A DNA stretch of 64,000 nt from the NCBI GenBank assembly GCA_021648145.1, contig JAKITI010000005.1:1-64000 (forward strand). The letters are read 5' to 3'. Position 1 is the stretch's first letter; every line of letters starts with the position of its first letter. Origin of the DNA: Gammaproteobacteria bacterium (GTDB taxonomy: Bacteria; Pseudomonadota; Gammaproteobacteria; JAADGQ01). The notes below the pieces were generated by a model. That model worked only from the letters and a program-made list of their open reading frames with translations. It was not told the origin of the DNA and searched no databases. A program made the position numbers and the translations under genes. Below are positions 1 through 23,649 of this stretch, piece after piece.

Positions 1-75
1 TATGGCGGCTCCTGACGAAAGAATAAACAGACTTGATAACAAGTGTGTTCGGTAGAAGTTCTTGCGTGATCTCAT
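1..75 (-). CDS. Secreted protein, N-terminal fragment (cut by window edge)
   Basis: Only the first 25 codons are inside the window. The reading starts MRSRKNFYRTHLLSSLFILS and continues SGAAI: basic residues followed by a hydrophobic stretch and small residues, as in a signal peptide. On the minus strand a strong ribosome-binding site (GAGGGG) lies about nine bases before the ATG, which is what makes this more than a chance opening. The gene runs divergently from the secreted-family gene that begins at 431. The mature part is outside the window, so no function can be given; it could be another member of that family. Confidence 0.5.
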   Translation of the reverse strand, partial: MRSRKNFYRTHLLSSLFILSSGAAI

Positions 76-430
76 AGTGTGAGTCCCCTCTTGTAACAAC
101 ATGAGAGACAACCTTGTCAAAAAATTAGTCCTTAAAAAAATAAATTATACACTTATACTTTACTTTAACCCTTAACCTAAACACACAATTTTTAACGAAC
201 TTTCATGTGCTATTATGGTCAATGAAAATATAGGGGGTATCGACTATTTTGAATTTTTCTTTAATCGGATGATGCTTGAATATTAAAGATTATTATTTAA
301 TAACCGATATCTATTCTTGCCGAAAGATATTGTTTACTCCTACAGTCGACACCATCACAGAACAAAATAAGCTTTAAAATAATAATAACAATTTAAAATA
401 AAAACAATAATATACAGCTAGGTTTTTCTC
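76..430. other. A+T-rich intergenic region between divergent secreted genes
   Basis: About 355 bases without a gene, very rich in A and T runs. It must carry the promoters of the two divergent genes on either side, but I could not pick out a convincing -35/-10 pair, operator or RNA structure. No tRNA-like fold was seen. Confidence 0.5.
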
Positions 431-1558
431 ATGAAATTTTCGACTCGAAGCAAAGCGCTTTTGCGTGCACTTGCTATGAGTGAAAAAACGGAACTTATCA
501 CTCAAGCACTCAAAATTTTACCACTCCTGCTTTTGTCAGGAAATGCTTGGTCAGAGACCAACATGACTTTAAATTTCAATGCGGGCTCAGGCAATAACAG
601 TTTTTACCCTGGCGCATGCAATATGAGCGGCCCTGTAGCTGATAATGCCTGCGGTATCTCTCCCATCGAAAACCAGACTGAAGCCGACCCTGACACCACT
701 CCTTTTTTTCAAGGCACCTACACTGACCCAGATACGCAAATAAGTTATTGGCATATGATCGTTGGTGATCCGGCTTCGGGGTTTGCCATGGAGAGTTATA
801 CTCCTGTCATTAACAGTTACGAATCAACAAGCGGCGGCAAACCCTCCAAAATATTCCAGCGAGGAGCAGAGTCATTAGAAACCCGCAGTGGCAATGGCTG
901 GGATCCACTCGGGTTGAATCCTTCCAGAGATTTTGATTACACCGGCAATGCTACGGGTGATCCGTCCAAAACAATCATGCGACAAGTCATGGGGGGCTCC
1001 TGGGATGCTGCCACTAATACCTGGAGCTGTGAGGATACAGATGAATATTGTTCAGAATTTTTGAAAAATAAATTTCTTTTCAAACCCGTAATTACTCAAC
1101 AAATCAATGAAACCGACTTTGTTCACAAATTTGCTTTGGATATGAGTGCAATTGATTATGACGACGACTCAACGGCAGGAGAACTGACCAATACAATCAT
1201 CATTACTGATCCAGACATGCCCGACTTTGATATCAAAGCAGGGGATTTTAAAATGAACAACAATAATATTGAAATCAGCATACCTGACCCACAAATATCG
1301 ACGATAAATCCAGAAATTACGGGGGGACGATATACTTACAATCAATGTGACGATCCACAACTCTCAAAGGGTATCGAGAGTTGCTGGCAAGACAATGATA
1401 TTAATAATTGGGATTATCAAGAAGGAACATACAGTTATGTTGAGGGTAATGCTGATGTCCTCAATTATGAATGGGACATGTACTGGGATCCTTCACAAAA
1501 TGCCGGGCTTGCCGGCAATGAAAGTAAATGTGCGAACAGCTTGGCGGGCAGTTGCTGA
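431..1558 (+). CDS. Secreted protein of an unrecognised three-member family, copy 1
   Basis: A 375-residue protein with a long N-terminal leader: basic residues, then a hydrophobic run (ILPLLLLSG) ending near NAWS at about residue 42, so export is likely. The mature part is acidic and rich in Asp, Asn, Gly and aromatic residues. Blocks shared with the copies at 1671-2807 and 22708-23649 include TPFFQ, YWH-I-GDPA-GFA-E-Y, GGKPS, SGNGWDPLG-NP, MRQVMGGSW, WSC, TGGRYTY and a C-terminal W-Y-GTYSYV segment. Paired cysteines suggest disulfides. No lipobox, membrane anchor or sorting motif was seen at the C-terminus, which ends in Cys. I do not recognise the family and assign no function. The start is supported by alignment of the leader with copy 2. 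Confidence 0.8.
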   Translation: MKFSTRSKALLRALAMSEKTELITQALKILPLLLLSGNAWSETNMTLNFNAGSGNNSFYPGACNMSGPVADNACGISPIENQTEADPDTTPFFQGTYTDPDTQISYWHMIVGDPASGFAMESYTPVINSYESTSGGKPSKIFQRGAESLETRSGNGWDPLGLNPSRDFDYTGNATGDPSKTIMRQVMGGSWDAATNTWSCEDTDEYCSEFLKNKFLFKPVITQQINETDFVHKFALDMSAIDYDDDSTAGELTNTIIITDPDMPDFDIKAGDFKMNNNNIEISIPDPQISTINPEITGGRYTYNQCDDPQLSKGIESCWQDNDINNWDYQEGTYSYVEGNADVLNYEWDMYWDPSQNAGLAGNESKCANSLAGSC

Positions 1559-1670
1559 TTTTTTAGATTTTAATCAAGTAGCCGATAAACAATGTATCAA
1601 GCGAGCTCAACATAACCATCGCTGGGGGAGAAGTATGCCCTTAAATATCATTGTTCAGGCAGAAAGTTTC

Positions 1671-2807
1671 ATGAAACTTTCTATTCAAAGCAAGGGATTG
1701 CATTTTATACCTGCCTTGAGTAGAACAAGGAGTGCTGCCACTCAGTTATTAAAAACCCTGCCATTGCTCTTTCTGTTTGGATCAGTACACGCATCCACAG
1801 GAATGACTCTAAACTTTAATGTTGGACCACATAACAATAGCTTTGCTCCTGGGGCATGCGATATGAGCAATGCACCATCCAGCGCCATCGACTCTAGTTT
1901 GTGTAGCATCGGAAATATGATGACGACCGCAGATCCTGATAATACACGTTTTTTCCATGGTACTTACACTGACCCAGATACATCCGTAGCATACTGGCAC
2001 ACAATTGTCGGCGACCCAAGCACTGGATTCGCCATGGAGAGTTACATCCCTAAAGTCAATAGCTTTGAATCTACCAGTGGCGGCAAGCCCTCTGCAATCA
2101 TGGGATGGAATAGAACACTAGAAGAGTACAGTGGTAATGGCTGGGATCCGCTTGGCATAAACCCTTCCAGGAATTTTGATTACACTGGCAACGGCACTGC
2201 TGATCCCACGAAAGTCATCGTACGCCAAGTGATGGGAGGCTCCTGGAATTCAGTTACAGGCAACTGGACTTGTGAAACTTCAGATGAGTATTGCTCAGAA
2301 TTTATAAAAGATCAGTTTCTATTCAAGCCAAAAATTACTCAGAAAATTAATGAAGCCGATATGACACAGAACTTTGTTCTGGACATGAGTTCAATCACTT
2401 ACAGTGATGATACAACCGCAGGTAATATTATAAATACACTTACGATAACTGACCCTGAAATGCCTGATTTTAACCCTGCAGCGGGTAACTTTCAGATGAT
2501 TAACGGCACCATTACAATCAGCAACCCAGCCTCTGGTTCATCCACTTTCAATCCTAACGTCACGGGTGGACGATACACCTATACAGAGTGCACCAACCCA
2601 ACGAACTACAATGGTGTAGACCATTGCTGGCAAGATAATGATATCAACAACTGGGATTATGAAGAAGGCTCATACAGCTATGTAAATGGTGGTGAAGCCG
2701 ATGTGATGAATTATGAATGGGATGTGTACTGGGATCCATCACAAAATGGAGGTATCGCTGGCAATGAAAGCAAATGTTTAAATGGTATGTCCGCGAATAG
2801 CTGTTGA
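1671..2807 (+). CDS. Secreted protein of the same unrecognised family, copy 2
   Basis: A 378-residue tandem paralogue of the preceding gene, similar along its whole length. The leader begins MKLSIQSKGL, matching MKFSTRSKAL of copy 1, which is why the ATG at 1671 is chosen. An in-frame ATG at 1635 with GGGGAG four bases upstream is an alternative. The hydrophobic run LLKTLPLLFLFGSVHAS ends the probable signal peptide near residue 42. All family blocks are present (YWHTIVGDPSTGFAMESY, SGNGWDPLG, RQVMGGSW, GGRYTY). The C-terminus again ends in Cys. The 112-base gap to copy 1 suggests co-transcription. The stop codon is only six bases from the end of the convergent bioF, leaving no room for a terminator between them. 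Confidence 0.8.
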   Translation: MKLSIQSKGLHFIPALSRTRSAATQLLKTLPLLFLFGSVHASTGMTLNFNVGPHNNSFAPGACDMSNAPSSAIDSSLCSIGNMMTTADPDNTRFFHGTYTDPDTSVAYWHTIVGDPSTGFAMESYIPKVNSFESTSGGKPSAIMGWNRTLEEYSGNGWDPLGINPSRNFDYTGNGTADPTKVIVRQVMGGSWNSVTGNWTCETSDEYCSEFIKDQFLFKPKITQKINEADMTQNFVLDMSSITYSDDTTAGNIINTLTITDPEMPDFNPAAGNFQMINGTITISNPASGSSTFNPNVTGGRYTYTECTNPTNYNGVDHCWQDNDINNWDYEEGSYSYVNGGEADVMNYEWDVYWDPSQNGGIAGNESKCLNGMSANSC

Positions 2808-19990: not shown

Positions 19991-22036
19991 TTACTTCACA
20001 GGCACAAAAAGAAATTCACCCGACTCATGCCCGCCGTGACGAATGGGGGCATATTGAGGCGTTTGTTCAATATTGAATTTTGCTGCTGTTATATGCACTT
20101 TATCAGCCACATCACGATAGACTTTATAACCTTCCATTATATTTTCATTAGACTCCAGAGAATCAAAAAATGCTTGAGCGAAAATAGAGTGGCTACCACC
20201 ACCGCTGTCCATTACGGGCTTTATTCCTCCTGATGTTAACACTGTTCTCGAACGTGTTTTGGCCATGACACCCATCCATTTTTGACGCACTTCATCCGTC
20301 AGATCAATATCGAGTCTAGCAAGAGATGAGCGTGTTAATGAACCCGAATAACAAGAGTCAGCAACCACCAGCACATGCTTGGCTTTCATTGCATTTAACT
20401 GCTCTGTAATTGAGATATTGGAGATCCAGTTTGCAGTACTATTCGGCTCTGCATCCACAGGCAGCCAATACCCCTGCATATTAATCCGATCAATCTCACC
20501 ATGGCCTGCGTAATAGATCAGCAAGTTATCCTGATCGGTTAACTGCTCACGCAACCTGTTTAATTCAGACAAAATATCATATCGCGTTGCATTCAATAAC
20601 AGGCTTGTTTTAAACCCATACTGATCTCGTAATACTTTTTCAGCGCGCTCAGCATCTGATACAGCAGTGGCCAAGTCAGGCATTTTTGGATATCGGTTAT
20701 TACCAATAATCAAAGCATAGTAAGAGCCAAAATCAATTGAACTCACACGCCGTGACTGCGCTTTATCCAGAGGTTTTGTAACTGTTGCAGGGGCATTACG
20801 AAATTTAGGGATGAACATGAAATCAACAGTGGCTCGTCTGCCTTGTTTATCGACAGCAACCACTGAGACTGCTGTATCTGTTTTTTCAATCTCAATATTG
20901 GCTTTGAAGACATTATTATGTGCCAGTTTTTGAGGTTGATCATTCACTGTAATCGCAAGAATTCCAGCCGGTGCCGTCACTTTACCCACAATTAGACGCT
21001 CTTTCACGAAAGTACGTAATTTCACACTGGGAACTCCACGAGTCACCACAACAGGCGGGTCAATGATTTCTATAACAGGCCCTGCCAACTCAGAGTCCTG
21101 ATTTTCACTTAGCTGATGCTCTTGAACCTTAACTGATTCCAGCTCTTTTTTAAGTCCAGTTTTTTGCTGTTTAAGCTCTGTCTGGAGCCAGTCCAGCTCT
21201 TTCTGCTGAGTTATAATTTTTGCTTCTTCCTGTACCAACTCCTGTTTTACAGCTTTTAACTTACTCTTGGCGCCCTCTGTATTTAGAGATTTTAACTGTT
21301 TATTTAAACGTACAACTCTGTTTTCTGCTGTGCTTAAGGCTGTTTTACGTAATTTGAGTTTTTTCTCGGTTTTATCCAGTTGCTGGCGAAGTAATTGTGC
21401 CTCTTGTTTACGGCGCTCAATCTCTTCTCTTAATTTTTGAGTTTTTTGCTCCACCTGTGATGCCACTGTGACTTCAATGGTTGATGAAAACTCCAGATCA
21501 TCATCCGTAAGACCTGATGCTTTACGATACCAATTCAGTGCTTTCGCAACATCTTTCTCAATACCCAGACCTTTTTCATACATATAACCCAAATTAATTT
21601 GAGCGCTGGAGTAATTTTGTTCGGCTGCTTTTTTATACCAGGCATACGCAGATTGATAATCAGACTGAGTACCCAGCCCCTTTTCATAAATTTCACCGAC
21701 ATTGGTTTGCGCTTCTGGATCCCCCGCTTTAGCGCCATCAAGCCAAACTTTTAATGCCGTCCGATAATCAGAACGATCATAAGCGACATATTCCCCACCC
21801 CGAATTTCACAATCAATGGCAGATGTTTTGATCGGAAGGCGCGGTGTCAGGTAGCTCATTTGGCCACCTAATTTACGCACTTGCCCCGGCAACAAACAAT
21901 CTACAATGAACAATTTTTCAACATCGACTTGTTTATTAGCCGAAGTCATACCCACTTGTTTCACCTGTTGCGCACAACCTACGACCGCCACCGTCATCAA
22001 CGCCACAACAACACTCAGTGTTAATTTGTTCACCAT
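19991..22036 (-). CDS. Caspase-like (peptidase C14) lipoprotein with Sel1 repeats and coiled coil
   Basis: A 681-residue lipoprotein with several parts. A signal peptide ends in lipobox VVGC (Cys21). Two Sel1-type TPR repeats follow at about 95-175 (AQTNVGEIYEKGLGTQSDY, AQINLGYMYEKGLGIEKD). Then come a long Lys/Glu/Gln-rich coiled coil at about 190-310, a beta-rich linker, and a caspase-fold domain from about 435. The catalytic His512 is in YYAGHGE and Cys562 in VADSCYSG, so it is probably an active cysteine peptidase. The ATG at 22036 (MVNKLTLSVV) follows AGGTGA. It lies 54 bases after a small membrane protein gene on the same strand. Role unknown; caspase-fold proteins in bacteria have been linked to signalling or cell death. 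Confidence 0.85.
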   Translation of the reverse strand: MVNKLTLSVVVALMTVAVVGCAQQVKQVGMTSANKQVDVEKLFIVDCLLPGQVRKLGGQMSYLTPRLPIKTSAIDCEIRGGEYVAYDRSDYRTALKVWLDGAKAGDPEAQTNVGEIYEKGLGTQSDYQSAYAWYKKAAEQNYSSAQINLGYMYEKGLGIEKDVAKALNWYRKASGLTDDDLEFSSTIEVTVASQVEQKTQKLREEIERRKQEAQLLRQQLDKTEKKLKLRKTALSTAENRVVRLNKQLKSLNTEGAKSKLKAVKQELVQEEAKIITQQKELDWLQTELKQQKTGLKKELESVKVQEHQLSENQDSELAGPVIEIIDPPVVVTRGVPSVKLRTFVKERLIVGKVTAPAGILAITVNDQPQKLAHNNVFKANIEIEKTDTAVSVVAVDKQGRRATVDFMFIPKFRNAPATVTKPLDKAQSRRVSSIDFGSYYALIIGNNRYPKMPDLATAVSDAERAEKVLRDQYGFKTSLLLNATRYDILSELNRLREQLTDQDNLLIYYAGHGEIDRINMQGYWLPVDAEPNSTANWISNISITEQLNAMKAKHVLVVADSCYSGSLTRSSLARLDIDLTDEVRQKWMGVMAKTRSRTVLTSGGIKPVMDSGGGSHSIFAQAFFDSLESNENIMEGYKVYRDVADKVHITAAKFNIEQTPQYAPIRHGGHESGEFLFVPVK

Positions 22037-22090
22037 CACTCTCACCTTTTTTGTAATTATTGACCTATAACACCACACATCAACCGACCA

Positions 22091-22707: not shown

Positions 22708-23649
22708 CTATTCAATAGGGCCTTCTACAACGTCCCACACCTCTTTAAGTAAACTTTTTGCGCTTCCCACATACTGGTATGTTCCTGCTTCATATTTCCA
22801 AGTGGTAAAATCTTGACCGATACCCCCATCACCTTGATCAACCCAGCCCGCACCTGGCGTATAGGTATAACGACCTCCAGTCACATTGGAACCTCCCGCC
22901 TGGCTGTCAATGGCCATATCGAAGTAACCAGACCCAGGGCTCTCCAGAGGCAGATCAGGGTCACTAATTTTCATGATGTTTATAATTTCACCGGCAAGCG
23001 CATCATTATCATATGCGCTATTACTCATATCCAACTCAAAAAAACTTTGCATATATTCAGCGCTATCATTAATTTGCTGAGTAATTTTGGGTTTTAATTT
23101 CAGGTCAGCTTTAATAAATTCATAACAAAAAGCAGCACCACCACAACTCCAGGTACGGTTTTTTTCATCCCACTCGCCACCCATAACCTGACGCATCACA
23201 ACTTTTGTTGGATCACCCGTACCATTTCCAGTAAATTCAACGCCATTGCCTGGATTGCGTCCTAACGGGTCAAATCCGTTTCCACTTTGCTGCTCATAAT
23301 TACTCAAACGATAAGCCGATGGTTTTCCACCGCTATTAGAGTAGCTCCCTCCCGCACTTTCAACATAAATTTCATAAGCAAAACCTGTTGCAGGATCACC
23401 AATAATCTGATGCCAATACTGCACACCATCCACCATTACAAGATCTTGAAAAAATGGTGTGTCATCCGGTTCAGCCGCACCCGAATCACACATATCACCA
23501 AAACCTCCTCCCACACCACAATTTCCTGGCATTCCAGTATTACCGCCAGGCTGGAAATTTAACGGTCGGGGAAAATCCGAAAAAGCAGGATGTGAATAAA
23601 ATAATGTCAGCAATAAAATAATCAGCACATGCTTTGCAGTAAGCCGCAT
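22708..23649 (-). CDS. Secreted protein of the unrecognised family, copy 3 (short form)
   Basis: A 313-residue relative of the two tandem genes at the left end. The signal peptide MRLTAKHVLIILLLTLFYSH ends near AFS, without the long leader of copies 1 and 2. Family blocks are kept: DDTPFFQ, YWHQIIGDPATGFAYEIY, GGKPSAY, SGNGFDPLGRNP, TGDPTKVVMRQVMGGEW, WSCGG, KPKITQQIN, ISDPDLP and TGGRYTY. It lacks the last 20-25 residues, including the terminal cysteines. GGAGG lies five bases before the ATG. It lies on the same strand as the PH-like protein and the caspase lipoprotein. Function unknown. Confidence 0.8.
   Translation of the reverse strand: MRLTAKHVLIILLLTLFYSHPAFSDFPRPLNFQPGGNTGMPGNCGVGGGFGDMCDSGAAEPDDTPFFQDLVMVDGVQYWHQIIGDPATGFAYEIYVESAGGSYSNSGGKPSAYRLSNYEQQSGNGFDPLGRNPGNGVEFTGNGTGDPTKVVMRQVMGGEWDEKNRTWSCGGAAFCYEFIKADLKLKPKITQQINDSAEYMQSFFELDMSNSAYDNDALAGEIINIMKISDPDLPLESPGSGYFDMAIDSQAGGSNVTGGRYTYTPGAGWVDQGDGGIGQDFTTWKYEAGTYQYVGSAKSLLKEVWDVVEGPIE

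Follow-up and report, generated by a model that had tools for sequence, protein, structure and literature searches.

Three genes in the window, by which we mean the whole 64,000-nucleotide stretch of DNA analysed, encode members of a secreted protein family without a name (family A), to which a second secreted family (family B) is related. Our leading reading, held tentatively, is that families A and B constitute a Sec-exported, disulfide-bonded superfamily of beta-meander proteins acting beyond the inner membrane, in all likelihood at the cell surface, and that the family A proteins most likely serve as accessory subunits of giant surface proteins. As far as family status is concerned, a new superfamily with a candidate beta fold of its own is well supported. 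The accessory-subunit role is the best fit to gene order and would cover part of the members only.

The preliminary description had reported three homologous reading frames at 431-1558, 1671-2807 and 22708-23649, and each of them was found there (Table 1). Copy 2 shares 62% identity with copy 1 (E 3e-155), and the copy at 22.7 kb shares 44% identity with copy 1 (E 4e-61). The gene calls are mechanical; the mechanical open reading frame of copy 2 starts at GTG 1347 and overlaps copy 1, and this start was rejected in favour of ATG 1671, which is backed by same-genus orthologues. Copies 1 and 2 do have the long leader (about 41 residues) and C-terminal cysteine ascribed to them, the C-termini of the three copies being SC, SC and PIE. 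The leader is restricted to the tandem copies and their orthologues, and the remaining family A members have ordinary signal peptides. Signal peptides are found throughout the family. Compared with same-genus orthologues, dN/dS is 0.076 for copy 1, 0.088 for copy 2 and 0.088 for the 22.7 kb copy, with dS of 0.8-1.4. Values of about 0.08 at dS near 1 indicate that the window copies are functional genes under purifying selection. The similarity is thus not a matter of composition: it runs over the full length with invariant columns and under selection. The same values refute the idea that these are decayed, non-functional reading frames conserved by chance; members are intact in many genomes, nothing was found in favour of decay, and we regard it as almost certainly wrong. 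A caspase-like (Peptidase_C14) protein with Sel1 repeats is encoded at 19991-22078 (-) near the 22.7 kb copy, and the order of the two genes is conserved in the same-genus genome G001.

Table 1. Positions of the family A and family B genes and associated features (window coordinates, or contig:position elsewhere in the same genome).
Feature	Position	Strand	Remarks
Divergent FG-GAP surface-protein gene	1..75	-	first 25 codons, signal peptide MRSRKNFYRTHLLSSLFILSSGAAI; cut by contig end
Divergent intergenic region between FG-GAP gene and copy 1, putative promoter	76..430	.	
Family A copy 1	431..1558	+	375 aa; ATG 431; signal peptide spans roughly residues 1-41
Mature beta-rich domain of copy 1	554..1555	+	334 aa; modelled, pLDDT 82.9, pTM 0.85
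Family A copy 2	1671..2807	+	378 aa; ATG 1671
Family A third window copy	22708..23649	-	313 aa; ATG 23649; signal peptide about 24 aa
Family A paralogue outside window	C3:115029		
Family A paralogue outside window	C7:71357		
Family A paralogue outside window	C1:83336		
Family A paralogue outside window	C26:10150		
Family B gene outside window	C5:119901-120821	-	
Family B gene outside window	C13:28196-28969	+	

The three paralogues first described are real copies of a larger family. The window's own genome (G000, 2.66 Mb) has seven family A paralogues, three in the window and four on other contigs, and a profile search detected the family in 22 of 369 gammaproteobacterial genomes from eight families of the class, nearly all of them with two to seven matches each. 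Among 398 genomes sampled from the whole phylum, family A occurred solely in the window's own genome; both genome sets are drawn samples. Named family A records all come from metagenome-assembled Gammaproteobacteria, and several of their isolate names suggest vent, groundwater or biocathode sources. No member was found among plasmids and viral contigs, and neither PHROGs nor PADLOC gave a family A match; on these empty results, phage, plasmid and defence origins were set aside. The arrangement of the genes varies. One contig (G038:C27, locus L118) carries a tandem array of four family A genes, with one open reading frame of 602 aa, and some members of the array have long C-terminal tails rich in Gly, Ser and Thr. 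At three other loci (L137 and L142 with a tandem pair each, L134 with one gene), family A genes are convergent with a carbamoyltransferase-like gene, and the pair members beside it have Gly-rich C-termini.

Family A was searched against libraries of known families and folds, and its novelty is relative to Pfam, NCBIfam, the PDB, BFVD, PHROGs and PADLOC as searched. At a threshold of E 0.01, none of the 62 members matched Pfam, where the window copies had no significant match, or NCBIfam. PDB sequences gave no family A match by phmmer or by profile, the first 30 kb of the window had no Rfam match, and we located no description of the family in the literature. The AlphaFold2 model of mature copy 1, built with 62 sequences, is confident and mostly beta. 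Foldseek compared this model with the PDB (best E 0.11) and BFVD (best E 0.038), with TM-scores below 0.2, where fold membership was set at E 0.001 or better. The profile search and the structure prediction proposed with the preliminary description therefore both bear out its view that the family is secreted, unrecognised and lacking any domain that can be named.

Family B is an unnamed secreted family whose genes adjoin family A genes in several genomes (L122, L136, L138 and L092), and its proteins have either a single domain or two, each about 300 aa long. Profile-profile alignment by hhalign of family A (62 sequences) with family B (45 domains) gave an E of 1.2e-6 and a probability of 91% over an N-terminal module comprising Cys...Cys, F-L/F-Q, Y.H/Q.IV and F..E.Y/F-I/V, compared with E of 0.33 and 0.35 for reversed profiles and 0.18 for the best of 40 column shuffles. 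Bridging members match the profiles of both families, and the B profile also recovers the family A member on contig C26 of the window's own genome. Across the superfamily we found a signal peptide, the C...C pair, the (T/G)-F-(L/F)-Q module, and the G..Y.(H/Q).I(V/I) and F..E.(Y/F)(I/V) strands. Family B is present in 24 of the 369 gammaproteobacterial genomes, including 21 of the 22 with family A. With seven family A and two family B genes, the window's own genome has at least nine superfamily genes. The family B model is a beta-meander (pTM 0.77) whose best PDB match has an E of 1.4; none of the 45 domains fell below 0.058 against Pfam, and NCBIfam returned single-member chance matches alone, the best at 0.006. 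In one 571-aa protein (L187:9178-10890, +), a propeller-like region and then a GlyGly-CTERM-type tail come after the B module.

The gene order around family A connects it with giant surface proteins. A giant gene (at least 900 aa) lies on the same strand no more than 120 bp downstream of 9 of 93 family A genes, as against 9 of 1220 other genes. This is 13 times the background rate (odds ratio 14, p 9e-7), for immediate adjacency to giant genes rather than general nearness to GlyGly-CTERM genes, in a sample of 60 genome regions plus named loci whose counts come from about six genera and are not phylogenetically independent. The remaining 84 of the 93 members have no giant gene directly downstream. 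The giants differ in kind across lineages: they comprise TpsA, SBBP propellers, proteins with FG-GAP, Calx-beta and choice-of-anchor U, and NHL/Ig proteins, after which a choice-of-anchor U protein is encoded. In three f81 genomes (L114, L117 and L128), a family A gene immediately precedes a TpsA-like gene, which at L114 encodes a 1113-aa TpsA with a TPS domain and is followed by TpsB (ShlB/FhaC). Of the strong FG-GAP loci encountered around family A members, every one has an FG-GAP gene within 400 bp of an A gene. On contig C3 of the window's own genome, the family A gene and its FG-GAP neighbour (1939 aa) share an ATGA overlap at the neighbour's start, which suggests translational coupling of the two genes. 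In the tree, the window copies and the FG-GAP-coupled members form one supported clade (98/96), and the sister group of the 22.7 kb copy consists of members whose genes precede giant FG-GAP genes.

An FG-GAP gene also starts beside the tandem pair. The fragment at 75-1 (-) was identified from its translation and from DNA alignment to same-genus loci; its intact counterpart in S141_38 (G001) and HyVt-476 is a 937-aa FG-GAP_2 plus cadherin/Big_9 gene starting 393-394 bp from copy 1. The intergenic region has the same layout in these two genomes, with conservation below that of the flanking coding ends. Fragments related to this FG-GAP gene are found on contigs C24 and C14. Both same-genus genomes have three tandem family A copies ahead of bioF. 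Each G000 copy groups with its own orthologues in the tree, and the extra copy forms a separate branch of weak placement (87/40). The triplication therefore probably predates the split within the genus, G000 having lost the third tandem copy.

The cysteine content of both families points to a compartment outside the cytoplasm. After the signal peptide, the number of cysteines is even (0, 2, 4, 6 or 8) in all 62 aligned family A members, 52 of which have the first cysteine pair, and it is even in 44 of 45 family B domains. Full pairing of the cysteines in disulfides, formed in an oxidising compartment, would produce such counts, and on this basis the family A proteins are very probably disulfide-bonded and exported. 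The earlier proposal of a surface or secreted function finds support in the signal peptides, the even cysteine counts and the surface-protein gene neighbours, but any more exact function is an inference.

Polar residues are conserved as well. His108, Lys212 and Lys218 are invariant in the 62 divergent family A members, Gln223 and Asp237 are nearly invariant, and these residues fall mostly within predicted strands of the copy 1 model. Lying on neighbouring predicted strands, they could form the binding or catalytic site of a stand-alone exported enzyme or ligand-binding protein to which the giants would be incidental, and this reading is the main rival to the accessory-subunit role. It would suit the many family A genes that stand solitary among housekeeping genes, for example about 400 bp or less from metG in nine loci. 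As the preliminary description had noted, no catalytic motif was found, and there is no fold match to any enzyme; the enrichment beside giant surface-protein genes is also left without explanation, and we consider the enzymatic or ligand-binding reading somewhat unlikely. The metG-adjacent members are not one clade in the tree, and we therefore do not derive them from one ancestral orthologue beside metG.

Two further readings concern assembly and the outer membrane. The many paralogues, the arrays with as many as four tandem genes, the two-domain B proteins, the Gly-rich tails of some members and the even cysteine counts would be compatible with a self-assembling subunit of an extracellular matrix, sheath or S-layer-like structure, the paralogues giving mixed polymers. 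Neither the strong sequence divergence nor the lack of a dominant conserved copy agrees with such a polymer, which is unlikely. Porins, BamA and TamA are among the weak top PDB matches of the B model and would hint at outer-membrane beta-barrels, but these matches have E of 1.4 or worse and probability of 0.12 or less. The even cysteine numbers, the invariant charged residues in strands and the lack of an aromatic C-terminal beta-signal in the window copies likewise speak against barrels, a highly improbable reading.

Rhombosortase and GlyGly-CTERM form a sorting pair, and the genomes carrying it generally also have type II secretion (PMC3237569). Rhombosortase (TIGR03902 above cut-off) is present in all 25 genomes with family A or B, compared with 11 of 37 genomes with neither (Fisher p 5e-9 when genomes are counted and 1.5e-4 when families are), and this co-occurrence may reflect shared ancestry. 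GspD is present almost everywhere and does not separate family A genomes from others, so the link to type II export is unspecific. Family A proteins have no anchor, in line with what had been described, and no sorting signal: the GlyGly-CTERM signal (Gly-rich motif, transmembrane helix and basic cluster) is found in none of their C-termini and is present in their neighbours. The superfamily resembles the rhombosortase/GlyGly-CTERM proteins (PMC3237569, PMC6219818) in occurring in the same genomes, in the adjoining position of several genes and in one B fusion, but family A and most B proteins differ from them in lacking the Gly motif, helix and basic tail. It shares with the FG-GAP/Calx-beta and cadherin-like giants an immediate gene neighbourhood of family A and presumably the place of action, whereas A and B have no FG-GAP, Calx-beta or cadherin domain. 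Two-partner secretion is similar in that a family A gene precedes the TpsA-like gene in the three f81 genomes; unlike TpsA, family A proteins have no TPS domain, and they mostly occur without TpsAB.

According to the accessory-subunit reading, a family A protein would be exported via Sec and oxidised in the periplasm before transport further out, for which the type II secretion system is a possible route. At the surface, which is its predicted location, it would dock onto a giant repeat protein of the FG-GAP/Calx-beta or cadherin-like, NHL/Ig or SBBP type, or onto a two-partner-secretion filament, and act there as an accessory or capping subunit; rhombosortase/GlyGly-CTERM processing probably retains several of the giants. 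Such a physical partnership may have a part in attachment or matrix formation, where the duplicated paralogues would provide varied binding faces for different giants or surfaces. A broader proposal, that the superfamily with its own fold supplies interchangeable secreted subunits to several giant classes and thereby represents an unrecognised surface-recognition repertoire in largely uncultured Gammaproteobacteria, is doubtful at present. The window's own genome, at 2.66 Mb, devotes no fewer than nine genes to the superfamily, which is multi-copy, under selection and left unnamed by current annotation libraries in several families of the class. Profile definitions of families A and B would name dozens of genes, and the superfamily offers a testable handle on surface building in mostly uncultured environmental Gammaproteobacteria.
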